A stretch of DNA of 22,295 nucleotides from positions 11,846 to 34,140 of the IMG/VR virus record IMGVR_UViG_3300030419_003692, one strand, 5' to 3'. Below are positions 6,344 through 22,295 of this stretch, piece by piece. Under the pieces are notes generated by a model. The model made no database searches, had not been told where the DNA came from, and was given only the letters and a program-made list of their open reading frames with translations. Position 1 is the first letter of the stretch. The number at the start of each line of letters is the position of its first letter. The position numbers and the translations under genes are program-made. The DNA is from a virus.

Positions 6344-7009
6344 ATGCCAAGTTGGAAAAAAATCATAACGAGTGGTAGTGATGCTGCTCTAAATAGTGTT
6401 ACTAAGACAGGTGATTTTACACTTGATGTTTCAGGTAATATAACACTTGATGCTGATGGGGCCCAAATTAGATTAGAGGATAACGGAACAGAATTTGGTA
6501 GATTAAGTAGAGTTGCTTCTGATTTGGTTATTAAATCAATAAGTAATAACAATGATATATTATTAAAAGGTGTTGATAATAGTTCAACTATAACTGCACT
6601 TAAATTAGATATGTCAGAGGCAGGAAATGCACAATTCAACGCGAAGATATCAGGTTCAGAAATAGAAGCAAGTGGTGATGTTATTGCATACGGAACATCC
6701 GATGAAAGATTAAAAGATAATATGGTTTACATAGGGAAACCATTAGAAAAGATTGACAAAATTGGTGGTTATACTTTTGATTGGAATGAAAAACAACAAA
6801 CTTTTCGTGGAAAAGATATTGGAGTAAAAGCTCAAGAAATTGAAGCTGTACTTCCTGAGATAGTTACTACTCGGGCAAGTGGATACAAAGGTGTCAAATA
6901 TGAGAAGATTGTTCCTTTATTAATTGAGGGAATTAAGGCATTAAATCAAAAAGTGGAGCACCTTGAAAATCTTTTAGGGAAAAAAATTGCCCCTAAAGAA
7001 AATTCGTAA
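6344..7009 (+). CDS. Short tail fibre with C-terminal S74 intramolecular chaperone domain
   Basis: The 221-aa protein has an N-terminal docking-like segment (MPSWKKIITSGSDAALNSV), a short beta-rich shaft (about residues 20-112) and a C-terminal Peptidase_S74 intramolecular chaperone from about residue 115. The self-cleavage dyad is visible as S119-D-E-R-L-K124. Downstream are typical S74 features: GGYTFDWNEK, DIGVKAQEIEAVLPEIV and a C-terminal helix (IKALNQKVEHLENLL). In this family the domain drives trimerisation and then cuts itself off just before the Ser, here releasing about 103 residues. AAGGAG precedes the ATG by 9 bases, and the leader may be folded. The stop codon falls inside an inverted repeat. 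The family assignment is firm; the role in this virion is inferred. Confidence 0.85.
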   Translation: MPSWKKIITSGSDAALNSVTKTGDFTLDVSGNITLDADGAQIRLEDNGTEFGRLSRVASDLVIKSISNNNDILLKGVDNSSTITALKLDMSEAGNAQFNAKISGSEIEASGDVIAYGTSDERLKDNMVYIGKPLEKIDKIGGYTFDWNEKQQTFRGKDIGVKAQEIEAVLPEIVTTRASGYKGVKYEKIVPLLIEGIKALNQKVEHLENLLGKKIAPKENS

Positions 7010-10354: not shown

Positions 10355-10846
10355 ATGGCCCAAATACTTGATGCAGACGAAATATTTTTTACCCCGTTTG
10401 AACCGAAAACTAAGAACCGATTCGTAATGTATATCGAGGGTATACCTTCTTATTTTGTAAAAACAATGAATCGTCCACAAATTACTTTTGAGGAAATCGA
10501 ACTTAATCATATCAATGTTAAGAGATTTGTAAAAGGTAAAGGAACATGGGAGCCTTTAGAAGTTACTCTATATGACCCAATCGTTCCAAGTGGAGCACAA
10601 GCTGTTATGGAGTGGGTAAGATTACACCACGAATCAGTAACAGGTCGTGATGGATATTCAGATTTTTATAAGAAAGAAATCAAATTCAATCTTTTAGGTC
10701 CAGTTGGTGATAAAGTTGAAGAATGGGTATTGAAAGGTGCTTTCATACAAACAGCAAACTTCAATGACTTAGATTTTGCTAACGGAACTGATGTTGCTGA
10801 TATTTCGTTAACACTTCGTTACGATTACGCAGTATTATCGTTCTAA
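10355..10846 (+). CDS. Tail tube protein (T4 gp19-like)
   Basis: The 163-aa product has the same length as T4 gp19 and the gp19-type pattern: N-terminal NRFVMYIEGIPSYFVKTMNRP, then KRFVKGKGTWEPLEVTLYDP, then EWVLKGAFIQTANFNDLDF and a final beta strand (DISLTLRYDYAVLSF). It would stack as hexameric rings forming the inner tube through which DNA passes. AGGAG lies 8 bases before the ATG. It follows the sheath as in T4, but here a terminator, a structured spacer and a promoter-like motif come between. The small membrane protein follows after 18 bases. Confidence 0.93.
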   Translation: MAQILDADEIFFTPFEPKTKNRFVMYIEGIPSYFVKTMNRPQITFEEIELNHINVKRFVKGKGTWEPLEVTLYDPIVPSGAQAVMEWVRLHHESVTGRDGYSDFYKKEIKFNLLGPVGDKVEEWVLKGAFIQTANFNDLDFANGTDVADISLTLRYDYAVLSF

Positions 10847-11159: not shown

Positions 11160-11927
11160 ATGGCTGAAAATCAGTACGATTTTCCGACCGAAGTTTTGGC
11201 ACTTCCTTCAAAAGGTTTACTTTATCCAAAGGATAGTCCGCTTCGTTCAGGAACAATAGATGTCAAATATATGACAGCAAAAGAGGAAGATATTCTAACT
11301 TCTACAAATCTTATACAAAAAGGATTAGTAATAGATAAACTATTAACAAGTGTTATTGCAGATGATAAAGTTTCATTAGATGATATGTTAATCGGTGATA
11401 AAAATGCACTTATGGTAGGAACAAGAGTTTTAGGATATGGTCCAGAATATCAAGTTAAAATGGAAGACCCTGATACGGGTTTAGAAGTTGAACATTCTTT
11501 TAATTTAACGACATTAGAAACTCGTGAGATAGATGATAAAGTGTTTAAGAATGGTAATAAATTTTCATTCAAAACACCAAAATCAGGAAATACTTTAGAG
11601 TTTAGGTTGTTAACACATAAAGATGAGAATGATATCGCAAAAGAAGTTAAATCTTACGAGAAGTTAACTAAAGCAACAGGTGTATCAAACGAACTTACAA
11701 CTCGATTGAAAAAACAAATTATTTCAGTAGATGGTGATAATAAACAATCATCTATTAATGAATTTGTAGATAATCGATTTCTTGCATTAGATACAAAAGA
11801 GTTTCGTAAGTATGTAACATCAGTTACACCAGATGTGTTATTCGAACAAGAATATGAGAGTCAGATAGGAGAATCCCATACGGTCAACATACCGATAGGG
11901 ATTGGGTTTTTTTGGCCTGACAGCTAA
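11160..11927 (+). CDS. gp26-like baseplate hub / tail assembly protein (T4_baseplate family)
   Basis: The 255-aa protein shows the pattern of the T4 gp26-like baseplate family: LPSKGLLYP (residues 15-23) and YMTAKEEDILTS (37-48) near the N-terminus, and the ending IPIGIGFFWPDS. T4 gp26 is a baseplate hub component of about 208 aa. AGGAG lies 8 bases before the ATG. The last codons run through GGG-TTT-TTT-TGG, and the +1 frame here opens a second ORF that continues 208 bases past this stop. Translation could therefore give two products, of 255 aa and about 324-325 aa. The location two genes upstream of the tape measure matches that of frameshifted tail chaperones in other phages. The family call is from recalled motifs. 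Confidence 0.72.
   Translation: MAENQYDFPTEVLALPSKGLLYPKDSPLRSGTIDVKYMTAKEEDILTSTNLIQKGLVIDKLLTSVIADDKVSLDDMLIGDKNALMVGTRVLGYGPEYQVKMEDPDTGLEVEHSFNLTTLETREIDDKVFKNGNKFSFKTPKSGNTLEFRLLTHKDENDIAKEVKSYEKLTKATGVSNELTTRLKKQIISVDGDNKQSSINEFVDNRFLALDTKEFRKYVTSVTPDVLFEQEYESQIGESHTVNIPIGIGFFWPDS
11897..11915 (+). promoter_or_regulatory. Candidate programmed ribosomal frameshift site
   Basis: AGGG (11897-11900) is followed by ATT and then GGGTTTTTTTGG, with seven Ts at 11907-11913. The gp26 frame reads GGG-TTT-TTT-TGG. A peptidyl-tRNA-Phe on TTT (11910-11912) can re-pair on TTT after moving +1 (11911-11913) or -2 (11908-11910), entering the downstream frame. The AGGG lies 9 bases upstream of that TTT codon, in the range for a stimulatory Shine-Dalgarno. 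No strong downstream stem-loop is evident. Confidence 0.5.
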
Positions 11928-12135
11928 ACACAAGACTTTAATACACGAAGAAATATTTAATTTAATCCAATACGGAAACGGGTTCGTCCATTCTGACGTC
12001 TATAGAATGCCCGTCTATTTAAGAAAATTCTATTTAAAACAATTAGTTGATGTAAAGAAAAAAGAGACTGAGCACACTAAACGGGCTCAATCACAAAGTT
12101 CAAATTTACCACCACACCTTCAAAAGAAAAATTAG
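11902..12135 (+). CDS. Start-less ORF overlapping gp26-like gene; candidate frameshift extension (gp51-like or chaperone part)
   Basis: This frame is +1 relative to the gp26-like gene and encodes up to 77 aa. Its only upstream initiation codon is a TTG at 11902 without a suitable Shine-Dalgarno; an in-frame TAG lies at 11896 and the first ATG is far inside (12007). The sequence is clearly protein-like: HKTLIHEEIFNLIQYGNGF, then DVYRMPVYLRKFYLKQLVD and a charged, Gln/Ser-rich tail. The pattern of helix, DVYRMPVYLR, then KKE resembles the small partner proteins of tail assembly. It is most simply expressed as a +1 or -2 frameshift fusion at GGGTTTTTTTGG (11904-11915). A sequencing indel in the 7-T run is the main alternative. 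Confidence 0.6.
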   Translation: MGFFGLTAKHKTLIHEEIFNLIQYGNGFVHSDVYRMPVYLRKFYLKQLVDVKKKETEHTKRAQSQSSNLPPHLQKKN

Positions 12136-12186: not shown

Positions 12187-12372
12187 ATGAAGAAGAAATT
12201 GACTGTCGAGGGTTTTATACAGTCATTACTTAAACAAATACAAAAAATTACAAGTAATGACCTTAATAAAATAATGAGATTACAAGACCCACGATTAAAA
12301 AAATCTATACTAAGATTAAAAACCGACAAAGATTATTACGAGAAGATGGCTAAAAAATATGGCCTTCGATAA
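12187..12372 (+). CDS. Small basic helical protein of unknown function
   Basis: This 61-aa product is Lys-rich (pI clearly basic) and predicted helical, with no membrane segment or Cys motif. The middle reads LQDPRLKKSILRLKTDKDYY. I do not recognise it. It has AAGGA about 9 bases before the ATG and a promoter-like motif upstream, and the tape-measure gene follows after 23 bases. A role in tail assembly near the tape measure is possible by position only. Confidence 0.5.
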   Translation: MKKKLTVEGFIQSLLKQIQKITSNDLNKIMRLQDPRLKKSILRLKTDKDYYEKMAKKYGLR

Positions 12373-12395: not shown

Positions 12396-14888
12396 ATGGC
12401 CAAATATACACCACAACAAATAATAGATGCTAAAAGGGAAGAAGTGCGCTTGGGTGAAGAACTCAAACAAGAAGCTGGTGATATTAAAAAGGAACAAGAA
12501 AGAATAAATAAATTAAAAGGAGATGCCAAAGATATGGCTCAAAGTGAGCTTGATATGACAAAAGAGATGTATAATATGAAGAAGATGGAGTATGATGAAC
12601 AAAAGGCCATTGGAAATGAATACAAAAAACAATCAAATACACAAAGAAGATTGATTGGTAATGCTGGTGAACATATAAAACTCGTTATTAAAGAAAAAGA
12701 TGTTTTGGATAGTGTTAATAGGGCAGTAAAGTATCAACATGACCAGGCATCTGATATTTATACTATTTTAACAGAAACATCTTCAATTCGAAATGAGATT
12801 TTAAAAACTAATAATAAAGAAAAATTATTATCCTATGATATAGCAGGTAATACTGAACAATTAAAAGAGATTCAAGAAAAAATCTTGATAATGGCACAAG
12901 ATAAAACTAAAGAAGGTCAACAGGCATATAAGGATGCAAAAGCTGAATATGACTTAGCGGAAAAAGCTCATGTTGCAACATCATTGGTTGCAGAAAAAAT
13001 GCAAGTTCAAAGAGACTTGTCTGATAGGTTACTTAATAATATAGGAATGACCACCGAAGGTATGAAGGATATGGCAAAACAGGCTCAATTGTTTATGAGT
13101 GCCATGATGAGAAATCCCTGGTTAATAGCAATTGCCGCTATTGTTGCAATGGTTGCGGCATTTAAAAAAGTTTTAGAAATGAATATGGATATTCGTGATT
13201 CAATGAAACTGTCTATGAAACAGGCACAAGATTTTAATAAAGAAATTTATGATGTAAATTCTTTATCAAAGTTAGATGGTTTTCTTGGTAAAGATGGTTA
13301 TTTGTGGCAAGGTATGAAACTTGGAACAGATTACTTTGAAGATTGGATGTTGGGTATAGATAGAAAAGAAATTGGTGCCTCTATTATAAATGCAACAGGA
13401 AAATTATCTGATGTATCTGTAGATACTGTCAAACAAGTAGCTAATTTACAAAAATATATGGGAGTTCTTCCAGAAGATGCTACTCAACTTGCTAAGAATT
13501 TTTCAGTTGTTACTGGTGAATCTATGTCAGCTTCATTATCGACTGTAGAGATGGTTGCGGCCATGGCACAATTCAATGATGTAGCGGCAGGTGTTGTAGT
13601 AGCAGATTTGGCAGAGAATATGGAAGATATGATGGCCTTTACTGATGGTAGTGCAGAGCAAATGGCAAGGGCAGCTATTGAAGCTAAGAAGATGGGTGTT
13701 AATTTAGCCACTACCGCAAAGATTGCAAATTCATTATTAGATTTTGAATCGAGTATTGAAAAAGAGATGGAGGCATCTCTATTAATTGGTAAACAATTAA
13801 ACTTTAACAGAGCTCGACAATTAGCAATTGAGGGTGATATTGCTGGAGCTGCTCGAGATGTTATGAAACAAATTGGTGGTCAAGGTGCTTTCCAAAAAAT
13901 GAATGTTATTCAGAGAAGAGCATTGGCTGATAGTATTGGTGTAAGTGTAGATGAGTTGGCGAGATTATCAAGTGGTAAAGTAGAGTTTAAGAAACCAACT
14001 GAAGAACAAATTCAAGAACAATTAACTGATGCACAAAAAGCAACAAATGCGGCATTGGCTCTGAATACAGTCGCTTTAGGTGGTTTAACAGCGGTAATGG
14101 CATATGCTGGTAAAAAGGGTTATAACAGATTTATGGGAGCTCCAGGAAGTACACCACCACCTGGAACAAAAATAAATTCTGCTGGTAGAGTAGTTGATGC
14201 AAAAACAGGTAGATTTGTAAAAACTGAAGGAACTACACAAGCACCAAAAGCACCAAAAACACCAAAAGGTGGTCGTTTTAAAGGTATAAGAGGAAAAGGT
14301 GGTATGGCGGCAGCGGCATTGTTGTATGGATATGATATGTATAATATTCTTACCGATGATACAATGGCTAAAGCAGATAAAACCAAAGAAGCCACAAAAG
14401 TAACAGCTGGAACTGGTGGTGCAGTTGCTGGTGGTATTGGTGGTGCTAAAATTGGAGCCGCAATAGGAACAATGATTGCTCCAGGAATTGGAACGGCTAT
14501 TGGTGGATTTTTAGGTGGAGTTGGTGGTAGTATTGCTGGTTGGTGGGCTGGTGAAAAAACAGCTGAGGCCGCTATAAGTGCAGTTGAGGGTGTTCAAGAA
14601 GGTGAAAAAGAAATTATGTCACATCAAGAGGCTCTAAGAAAAGAGTGGTCAGAAATGAACGAGACTCAACAAGGATATCTTATGGATGCCATGGCGGATA
14701 GAGCTCAATTTGAAGAATTTACAAAGCAGTTATTTGAACAATTACCACAAGTTATTGCACAAGCACAGAGTGAAACAGATAAGAAAAATTTACAACAAAC
14801 ACAAGATTTTATAAACTTATTACAACAAATTGCTGATAATACAGGTAAGACTAGAGCAGAAGTAATTAACTTAATGGGTGGAGATTAA
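12396..14888 (+). CDS. Tail tape-measure protein
   Basis: The 830-aa protein has the layout of a tape measure. Residues 1-235 are long charged coiled coil (EELKQEAGDIKKEQERINKL and similar). A hydrophobic segment follows at about 241-257 (PWLIAIAAIVAMVAAF), then a helical, Ala-rich middle. A Gly/Ala zipper-like stretch at about 670-715 (GGIGGAKIGAAIG, GGFLGGVGGSIAGWWAG) could insert in a membrane, and a helical Gln-rich tail follows. Tape measures set tail length, fill the tube, and leave with the DNA. T4 gp29 is shorter (590 aa). The gene has no strong Shine-Dalgarno. It is followed 1 base later by the next baseplate gene, and the gp26-like pair upstream fits the usual chaperone-before-tape order. 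Confidence 0.82.
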   Translation: MAKYTPQQIIDAKREEVRLGEELKQEAGDIKKEQERINKLKGDAKDMAQSELDMTKEMYNMKKMEYDEQKAIGNEYKKQSNTQRRLIGNAGEHIKLVIKEKDVLDSVNRAVKYQHDQASDIYTILTETSSIRNEILKTNNKEKLLSYDIAGNTEQLKEIQEKILIMAQDKTKEGQQAYKDAKAEYDLAEKAHVATSLVAEKMQVQRDLSDRLLNNIGMTTEGMKDMAKQAQLFMSAMMRNPWLIAIAAIVAMVAAFKKVLEMNMDIRDSMKLSMKQAQDFNKEIYDVNSLSKLDGFLGKDGYLWQGMKLGTDYFEDWMLGIDRKEIGASIINATGKLSDVSVDTVKQVANLQKYMGVLPEDATQLAKNFSVVTGESMSASLSTVEMVAAMAQFNDVAAGVVVADLAENMEDMMAFTDGSAEQMARAAIEAKKMGVNLATTAKIANSLLDFESSIEKEMEASLLIGKQLNFNRARQLAIEGDIAGAARDVMKQIGGQGAFQKMNVIQRRALADSIGVSVDELARLSSGKVEFKKPTEEQIQEQLTDAQKATNAALALNTVALGGLTAVMAYAGKKGYNRFMGAPGSTPPPGTKINSAGRVVDAKTGRFVKTEGTTQAPKAPKTPKGGRFKGIRGKGGMAAAALLYGYDMYNILTDDTMAKADKTKEATKVTAGTGGAVAGGIGGAKIGAAIGTMIAPGIGTAIGGFLGGVGGSIAGWWAGEKTAEAAISAVEGVQEGEKEIMSHQEALRKEWSEMNETQQGYLMDAMADRAQFEEFTKQLFEQLPQVIAQAQSETDKKNLQQTQDFINLLQQIADNTGKTRAEVINLMGGD

Positions 14889-20686: not shown

Positions 20687-21381
20687 TGAAAATCGATGTA
20701 TTAGATAAAGGATATATTGAGTTAGTTGATACACTTGGAGATGATTTAACACCAGTTAACGCCGCTCGTGTATCATTTGGTGGTAGAAGTGATAAATTTG
20801 AAAATAAAGATAGAAAATTATCTAAATTTTTAATTAAACATAAACACTTTTCACCATTTCGACATCAACATATTCAAGTTATTATTAAAGCACCAGAGTT
20901 TGTAATGAGACAATGGTATAAGCATGTAGTTGGAATAGAAACCACATCAGACCATCCAACAAAAGACCATGCTTGGAATGAGATTAGTGGTAGGTATGTT
21001 CCTTATAATGAGTTCTATGAACCAACAGAGTTTCGTAAACAATCAGAAGATAACAAACAGGCTAGTGATGGATTGGTTGATAATCAAAAACATATGAAAC
21101 AACTATGGACTATCTCTCAACAAAATGTAATATCTGCTTATAAAGAGATGTTAAAGGGTGGTATGGCAAAAGAACAGGCAAGAAGTATTTTACCATTAAC
21201 TCTTTATACAAAAGTTTGGTGGACAGCATCATTTCAGAGTGTAATGAATTTTATAGAGTTAAGAGATGAACCAACATCACAAGTAGAGATACAAGATTAC
21301 GCAAAAGCTATGAAAGAAATTATGTTGGAATGTTTTCCAGAAACCACTAAATTGTGGGGAGAGATATATTGGAATGAGTGA
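20686..21381 (+). CDS. thyX: Flavin-dependent thymidylate synthase
   Basis: The 231-aa product is ThyX, which makes dTMP from dUMP using FAD, NADPH and methylene-tetrahydrofolate. Visible motifs: HFSPFRH (54-60), RQWYKH (75-80) followed by AWNEISGRY (96-104), RSILP (166-170), and near the C-terminus NFIELRD (188-194) with QVEIQDYAKAM. The usual RHRx7S motif is present only as a variant (RQWYKH then ExSxRY), with a longer intervening loop. AAAGGAG lies upstream of ATG 20686; a GTG at 20683 would add one residue. The start overlaps the stop of the 48-aa ORF and the end overlaps nagB. Phages carry ThyX to supply dTMP for replication, so this marks the switch from structural to metabolic genes. 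Confidence 0.93.
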   Translation: MKIDVLDKGYIELVDTLGDDLTPVNAARVSFGGRSDKFENKDRKLSKFLIKHKHFSPFRHQHIQVIIKAPEFVMRQWYKHVVGIETTSDHPTKDHAWNEISGRYVPYNEFYEPTEFRKQSEDNKQASDGLVDNQKHMKQLWTISQQNVISAYKEMLKGGMAKEQARSILPLTLYTKVWWTASFQSVMNFIELRDEPTSQVEIQDYAKAMKEIMLECFPETTKLWGEIYWNE

Positions 21382-22033
21382 GGTTAAGTTATTTATTAAT
21401 TATGAGAAACTATCATCTTATGTTGCCAATATAGTTGAAAAACAATTAAAAGAAAAACCAAACTCAACATTTATATTACCAACAGGTACTACACCAATTG
21501 GATTATATAAAGAGTTGGTAAAAAGAAAATTAGATTGGAGTGAGGCAACTACATATAATTTAGATGAATATATTGATAACATAGACCCAGAACAAAGTTA
21601 TTTACATTTTATGATGGTTAATTTATTTGAACACATAAATATTAATTCAGATAATGTTCATTTTCCAAAAAAAGAACATGATACAGAGTATGGATTTAAT
21701 GTTGATTTATGTTTATTAGGTATTGGTGGTAATGGACATATAGCATTTAATGAACCAGGTTCTTCATTTGAATCAGAAACAAGGATTGTAGATTTAACGG
21801 AAGAAACAATTAAAGATAATTCAAGACTTTTTGATAACATAGAGGATGTTCCAACACAGGCAATCACTATGGGAATGAAACCAATTATGAGTTCTAAGAG
21901 AATTGTAATGATGGCAAATGGAAAACATAAACAAAGGATTTTAGATAAGGCGATGTTTGGTAGATTAAGTGAAGAACTACCAGCATCAATTTTACAACTT
22001 CACGATAATATGGAGGCAGTTTATTGTGATTGA
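21374..22033 (+). CDS. nagB: Glucosamine-6-phosphate deaminase-like protein (NagB family)
   Basis: The 219-aa product carries the NagB signatures: phosphate-binding PTGTTPIGLY (36-45), YNLDEY (61-66, D64 the likely general base) and GIGGNGHIAFNEP (116-128, with H122 and E127). NagB interconverts glucosamine-6-phosphate with fructose-6-phosphate and ammonia. Asn at the position of E. coli D141 (GNDGH there, GGNGH here) is, as I recall, common in Gram-positive NagB. The protein is shorter than E. coli NagB (266 aa), lacking part of the segment before GIGGNGH and part of the C-terminus. It overlaps thyX by 8 bases and the next gene by 8 bases. Substrate could differ from GlcN6P, since a related fold occurs in 6-phosphogluconolactonase. 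Confidence 0.85.
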   Translation: MSEVKLFINYEKLSSYVANIVEKQLKEKPNSTFILPTGTTPIGLYKELVKRKLDWSEATTYNLDEYIDNIDPEQSYLHFMMVNLFEHININSDNVHFPKKEHDTEYGFNVDLCLLGIGGNGHIAFNEPGSSFESETRIVDLTEETIKDNSRLFDNIEDVPTQAITMGMKPIMSSKRIVMMANGKHKQRILDKAMFGRLSEELPASILQLHDNMEAVYCD

Positions 22034-22295
22034 TAAGATAATGATAGTAGCACACCCTGATGATGAAGCACTATTTGGTGGGGCAGAATTATTATCACAT
22101 CCAAATGAATATAAAGTAGTAGTAATAGATGAGTATCATAATGATATCAGACGAAGAGAATTTTTAGATAGTATGAGATTCATTGGTATTCACGAGTATG
22201 AACATTGGACAGGATTTAAAGGTGGTGAGGATTATCATAGAGAGAAATTGATTTACGAATTACTAAGGGTTTTGAGAGAAAGAAAATATATAAAG
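22026..22295 (+). CDS. PIG-L/LmbE-family deacetylase (partial, runs off the window)
   Basis: The first 90 residues are visible. IMIVAHPDDEALFGGAELL (residues 5-23) contains the AHPDDE zinc-binding motif of the PIG-L/LmbE family, followed by the family-type helix RRREFLDSMRFIGI (42-55). These zinc enzymes remove acetyl groups from N-acetylglucosamine-type sugars. GTG 22026 is chosen because GGAGG (22012-22016) lies 9 bases upstream and it gives the usual short lead-in before the motif; ATG 22041 would start right at MIVAHPDDE. The gene overlaps nagB by 8 bases, so both are probably co-translated. The third zinc ligand and the substrate-binding part lie beyond the window. Confidence 0.82.
   Translation, partial: MIDKIMIVAHPDDEALFGGAELLSHPNEYKVVVIDEYHNDIRRREFLDSMRFIGIHEYEHWTGFKGGEDYHREKLIYELLRVLRERKYIK

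Follow-up and report, generated by a model that had tools for sequence, protein, structure and literature searches.

The window analysed here, a stretch of 22,295 nucleotides, is part of a 34,140-base virus record. On its plus strand, the gene of a tail tube protein (10355-10846; PHROG 4542, E=3.6e-28) is followed by a gp26-like gene (11160-11927), a second reading frame termed ORF2, a short ORF and the gene of the tape measure protein (12396-14888; PHROG 794, E=1.5e-10). The gp26-like gene, designated G, encodes 255 amino acids, and its product matched the PF12322 profile with 37.1 bits (curated cut-off 24.5) and PHROG 150 with E=3e-10. In the zero frame, G ends with ATT GGG TTT TTT TGG CCT GAC AGC TAA, so that the junction (GGG TTT TTT TGG) carries a run of seven Ts (11907-11913). 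ORF2 lies in the +1 frame, extends without a stop from 11899 up to a TAG at 12133-12135 and overlaps the 3' end of G. The preliminary description of this DNA had noted such a start-less overlapping ORF, and we confirmed it at coordinates that had been right within a few bases. The sole start-like codon found near the junction is a TTG at 11902, and the AGGG only 1-2 bases 5' of it is too close to act as Shine-Dalgarno (SD) sequence. The candidate slip site TTT TTT TGG occupies positions 11907-11915 (plus strand) with TTT 11910-11912 as P-site and TGG 11913-11915 as A-site codon. After a +1 shift, reading would resume at GGC 11914 and would add an extension of 73 amino acids ending at the TAG (11914-12135, plus strand), which we call T. 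This assignment relies on a conserved family, a codon-position-3 bias, an alignment and a structural model. Between ORF2 and the tape measure gene there is a small helical ORF of 61 amino acids (12187-12372), and small ORFs are present at the matching place in Microcystis phage Mel-JY01 and in the huge uncultured phage LR756508.

A first scan of IMG/VR yielded 80 relatives of 48-100% identity, about 76 of which extend to the gp26 stop codon, and all of these carried TTT TTT TGG CC[T/A] together with a start-less +1 ORF. An identical junction at such divergence indicates neither a read error nor chance. Homopolymers are error-prone, and a read or assembly error would make both frames one gene, but the seven Ts and the frame offset recur in these roughly 76 contigs and in finished phage genomes. 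The comparative data refute this explanation and leave it a negligible probability. Alignment-based scans, each covering the best 80 of several hundred relatives, brought the set, drawn from IMG/VR contigs and named phages, to 208 unique junctions. Among the matches listed, 194 of the 208 showed the +1 overlap, located at a terminal Phe-Phe/Leu site, which bears out the expectation that overlap and T-run are kept in related phages. Since membership in the +1 group was assigned by the open frame, it is the constraint on codons and the scarcity of exceptions that carry information. For counting, we defined 114 lineages with less than 75% identity.

Named relatives with 25-47% identity retain the +1 overlap while their junction codons vary. 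We found TTT TTT TGG in Mel-JY01 and Rhodothermus phage RM378, TTT CTT TGG in Flavobacterium phage immuto, TTT CTA TTC in LR756508, TTT TTT CAC in Bacillus phage SP-15, TTC TTT CGT in Streptococcus phage GXN1 and TTT TTT AGT in Listeria phage LIS04. All four relatives located in bacterial genome contigs are of the +1 type as well. In the named +1 phages examined, ORF2 is either unannotated or labelled hypothetical. A single-protein scan with SP-15 gp26 as query retrieved nothing beyond itself. In one single contig (L165; junction TTC TTT TGG CCC), ORF2 is in the other frame, which is possibly an indel or else a real change.

The codons of the junction are strongly constrained. Among the 194 +1 junctions (matches listed), TTT TTT TGG occurred 143 times, TTT TTT TAC 24 times, TTT CTT TGG 13 times and TTC TTT TGG 4 times, and others were few. 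Counted by lineage, the P-site codon was TTT in 104, CTT in 9 and CTA in 1 of 114. When the P-site codon encoded Phe, it was always TTT (104/104), compared with 74% elsewhere in these genes; TTC was found at this site in none of the 114 lineages, although it makes up 26% of their Phe codons. Similarly, P-site Leu was encoded by CTT in 9 of 10 cases, compared with 21% elsewhere. The A-site codon was UGG in 96 of 114 lineages, and UAC and other sense codons account for the remainder. In nearly all junctions the P-site tRNA can re-pair one base forward (UUU to UUY or CUU to UUU). For LIS04, this re-pairing carries a third-position mismatch, and the only P-site codon that is unable to re-pair at +1 is the CTA of LR756508; in this phage, the TTT C that precedes it by one codon could be the slip site instead.

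The preliminary description had left open whether the shift is +1 or -2. A -2 event at the T-run, as proposed for Mu, would produce the same fusion with one extra Phe, and -2 frameshifting is known in Mu and in arteriviruses (PMC5009743). The seven Ts of the window would permit it, and the E-site codon is TTT in 109 of 114 lineages, which is above the expectation from codon bias. However, junctions with TTC TTT (8/194) and TTT CTT (13/194; both among the matches listed) retain the arrangement and cannot re-pair at -2, so that P-site re-pairing at -2 is not common to all members. All but one of these variant junctions can re-pair at +1 by a P-site slip. The sequences TTC TTT TGG, TTC TTT CGT and TTT CTT TGG thus argue for +1, and a -2 shift appears unlikely. 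The variety of junctions also led us to reject slippage of RNA polymerase on the T-run, which would fuse the frames via mRNAs with extra or missing bases. The seven-T run of the window would be suitable for such a process, but TTT CTT TGG, TTC TTT CGT and TTT TTT CAC, with runs of only 3-6 Ts, preserve the architecture, and the SD-like element and hairpin upstream point to the ribosome. Transcriptional slippage is therefore very improbable. Taken together, the codon patterns make it very likely that a frameshift takes place and that its direction is +1, and the idea that a programmed event at the T-run fuses ORF2 to the gp26-like protein has gained strong comparative support.

If ORF2 were translated separately, by re-initiation or from a non-AUG codon in the vicinity of the gp26 stop, no frameshift would be needed at all. 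Initiation can make use of a distant SD sequence when a hairpin follows it, as in T4 gene 38, and both elements might aid such a start. In the huge uncultured phage LR756511 (L089), ORF2 has its own ATG overlapping the stop codon region of G, so that separate expression exists in a distant relative, and annotations of the cyanophage small gp51 begin at an ATG past the stop. However, a conserved start codon is lacking: up to 30 nt past the slip site, an ORF2-frame ATG is absent in 95 of 114 lineages and any of ATG, GTG or TTG in 55 of 114. Homologues with their own ATG and SD sequence had been named as evidence against a frameshift; LR756511 has such an ATG, and most lineages lack this codon. 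The first ORF2-frame ATG is usually codon 31-32, within a conserved YxMP motif. Moreover, a separate start leaves unexplained why the P-site Phe codon is TTT in 104 of 104 lineages and why the frame is open up to the slip site. We assign this route a small probability and retain +1 frameshifting.

Upstream of the slip site, the preliminary description had pointed to an AGGG. Better conserved is an SD-like AGGAG (11867-11871, plus strand) within G, and immediately 3' of it there is a stem-loop (11872-11903, plus strand; -12.2 kcal/mol) that ends 3 nt before the T-run; both had been missed. None of 500 synonymous shuffles of this part of the window was equally stable (z = -4.0). Across the 114 lineages, the region from -45 to -3 before the P-site codon gave a mean z of -1.79 against synonymous shuffles, with p=8e-17, a value that is indicative only because the lineages are related; four control regions farther upstream had mean z-values of -0.42 to -0.09. 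Individual hairpins reached p<0.05 in just under half of the lineages. An SD core (GGAGG or AGGAG) was present in 66% of lineages and in 5% of control windows. Glu codons in the SD region were GAG in 74% of cases compared with 26% elsewhere, and Gly at -12 was encoded by GGG in 32 of 66 cases compared with 7%. The SD-like element and the hairpin are under synonymous selection.

In the 50 lineages whose SD precedes the hairpin, the linear distance from SD to P-site codon was 30 +/- 5 nt, and it was 8.5 +/- 3.7 nt when the hairpin was looped out. The positions of SD end and hairpin start correlated with rho 0.24 (p=0.06) in all strong cases; the rho of 0.73 obtained within the SD-5'-of-hairpin subset is partly forced by the choice of that subset. 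Position-by-position covariation of the hairpin over the 114 lineages was weak because the stem geometry varies. For 70S ribosomes, an upstream hairpin adjoining the E site mimics an internal SD sequence, stimulating +1 and attenuating -1 frameshifting (PMC6321510). Five lineages (L031, L148, L228, L278, L225) have a second hairpin that begins just 3' of the slip site and whose loop contains the G stop codon; its stems (for instance GCCGCC..GGCGGC and GGGCTTA..TAAGCCC) appear compensatory between lineages. As a part of the core model this downstream hairpin was dropped, since it occurs only in some lineages (e.g., L031, L278) and is absent from the window.

To the proteins themselves we applied structure prediction, with G and T modelled apart. 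The AlphaFold model of G had a pLDDT of 92.7, and Foldseek matched it to models of SP-15 and T4-like gp26. A fold search of the PDB with G gave no significant match; the HK97 chaperone 2ob9 had the highest listed Foldseek probability (0.20), but with E=2.8. No match in sequence was found between G and lambda G. For T, the model (pLDDT 87) predicts three helices; a fold search with it returned nothing significant, and a profile search of solved structures gave no match. The T family shares the pattern HEEIF..GFT..EVYxMP..LRxFY. In the non-overlapping part of ORF2, differences at codon positions 1, 2 and 3 amounted to 0.22, 0.14 and 0.40, which fits a real coding frame. Five of 50 T members matched DUF6760 (PF20546) weakly, the best with E=3.7e-4.

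The locus shares its layout with the lambda G/GT genes, which lie between tail tube and tape measure and involve a -1 shift (Xu et al. 2004, as cited in PMC5009743). In both systems the short product comes from normal reading, and in the window, too, we found an overlapping ORF pair in this position, with a start-less second member and a shift-prone site kept in relatives. In contrast to lambda, the overlap of the window needs +1 at UUU UUU UGG, with SD and hairpin upstream. A likely +1 precedent in a tail-chaperone gene is that of the haloarchaeal myovirus HSTV-2, for which this direction is considered very likely (PMC5009743). The P-site slip proposed here resembles a cellular case. In E. 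coli prfB (RF2), a P-site slip on CUU/UUU then U, with an SD sequence upstream, gives a +1 shift. There, however, the A-site codon is UGA, whereas it is a sense codon (mostly UGG) here, and the SD of our system is distant with the hairpin in between.

We conclude, with a probability of roughly 0.8, that the gp26-like gene together with ORF2 encodes tail-assembly chaperones of the G/GT type and that GT is made by +1 frameshifting. A chaperone role, which had been suggested before, is supported by gene position and by the link to T4 gp26/gp51 and weakly by the fold. Kinship of PF12322 to lambda-type chaperones is suggested by gene position, by organisation and weakly by the fold, and we therefore claim a G/GT-like mode of action rather than homology. 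We infer the frameshifting and its +1 direction, and likewise the binding partners and what SD and hairpin do, as follows. Most ribosomes would terminate at the TAA and release G (255 amino acids). A minority, with Phe-tRNA in the P site and UGG in the A site at UUU UUU UGG, would slip forward by one base, UUU would re-pair with UUU and GGC would be read next, giving GT (324 amino acids). The AGGAG and the hairpin refolding behind the ribosome would push it forward, with the hairpin, as we propose, forming a bridge between SD and ribosome. On the model of lambda, G may coat the tape measure and the T tail may recruit tail-tube subunits.

In a second group of phages, a single PF12322 gene is overlapped by a small -1 ORF at T TTT TTC/T. 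This group includes the cyanophages P-SSM2, S-ShM2 and S-PM2, pelagiphage HTVC008M, Caulobacter phage Cr30, Sinorhizobium phage phiM12, KVP40, phiW-14, Atu_ph07 and PA5oct. In a further scan that included named phages, 75 of 77 unique junctions were of the -1 type and the remaining 2 were incomplete. The SD core was located at -15/-16 in 17 of 19 -1 lineages (<75% identity), and no upstream hairpin signal was detected in these 19 (mean z -0.04 for -42..0; -0.74 for -33..-3). An ATG just past the stop is present in most -1 relatives, with HTVC008M and PA5oct as exceptions, and thus separate translation is possible there. In P-SSM2, the small ORF is annotated as gp51, 'baseplate hub assembly catalyst'. 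Like the window, the cyanophages combine one PF12322 gene with a homologous small ORF overlapping at a terminal Phe-Phe run downstream of an SD; they differ in the -1 offset, in the SD lying 10-11 nt upstream, in the missing hairpin signal and in the annotation as two genes.

T4 gp26 and gp51 both belong to PF12322, the family of G. PHROG 150 is covered from 3 to 281 by T4 gp51 and from 10 to 236 by T4 gp26, and the separate small ORF of cyanophage-type phages corresponds to positions 206-282. HHalign gave 96.9% for T(+1) against T(-1) and 97.1% for T(-1) against gp51 tails, with reversed or column-shuffled controls below 1%; T(+1) and the gp51 tail compared directly gave 10.5%. On the strength of these profiles, T is homologous to the cyanophage small gp51, and only through T(-1) to the C-terminus of T4 gp51. 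Judged from their sequences, T4 gp26 and gp51 are paralogues, with gp51 consisting of the family domain plus a T-like tail that gp26 lacks. Unlike the window, T4 has them as separate genes on opposite strands and without an overlapping ORF. Both are classed as hub assembly chaperones, of which gp51 is needed but does not occur in the particle (PMC3004832). The pair suggests that T4 may have replaced the frameshift by gene duplication.

A broader scheme, to which we give even odds, is that in a very wide range of T4-related phages the ratio of G to GT is set by the SD, a hairpin bringing it near the ribosome and UUU UUU UGG, that during evolution the shift changed from +1 to -1 or back as the hairpin was gained or lost, and that duplication in T4 left gp26 as G and gp51 as GT. 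G-T frameshifting is described as conserved in long-tailed phages with T4 as the named exception (PMC5009743), and the proposal would answer that exception. If it holds true, G/GT exists in the T4 family too, encoded by a +1 or -1 overlap in relatives with a single copy and by a gene pair in T4, and the need of T4 for two related hub assembly chaperones would be explained. The family would also allow shift direction, which appears to follow the upstream hairpin, to be compared among natural sequences; otherwise only synthetic constructs permit this comparison. Reports of such a frameshift in gp26/gp51 relatives were not found in the open-access literature, an absence that is not proof; we consider as new the frameshift in this family, the arrangement of SD, hairpin and slip site, the +1/-1 split and the proposed duplication in T4.

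Elsewhere in the window, we observed a tail-fibre-like protein with an intramolecular chaperone domain (Peptidase_S74; 6344-7009) and a ThyX gene (PF02511; 20683-21381). The region 21374-22295 holds a gene resembling glucosamine-6-phosphate isomerase/6-phosphogluconolactonase (PF01182), followed by the start of a PIG-L-like de-N-acetylase gene, whose PF02585 score was just below the cut-off. These two genes suggest amino-sugar metabolism in the phage.
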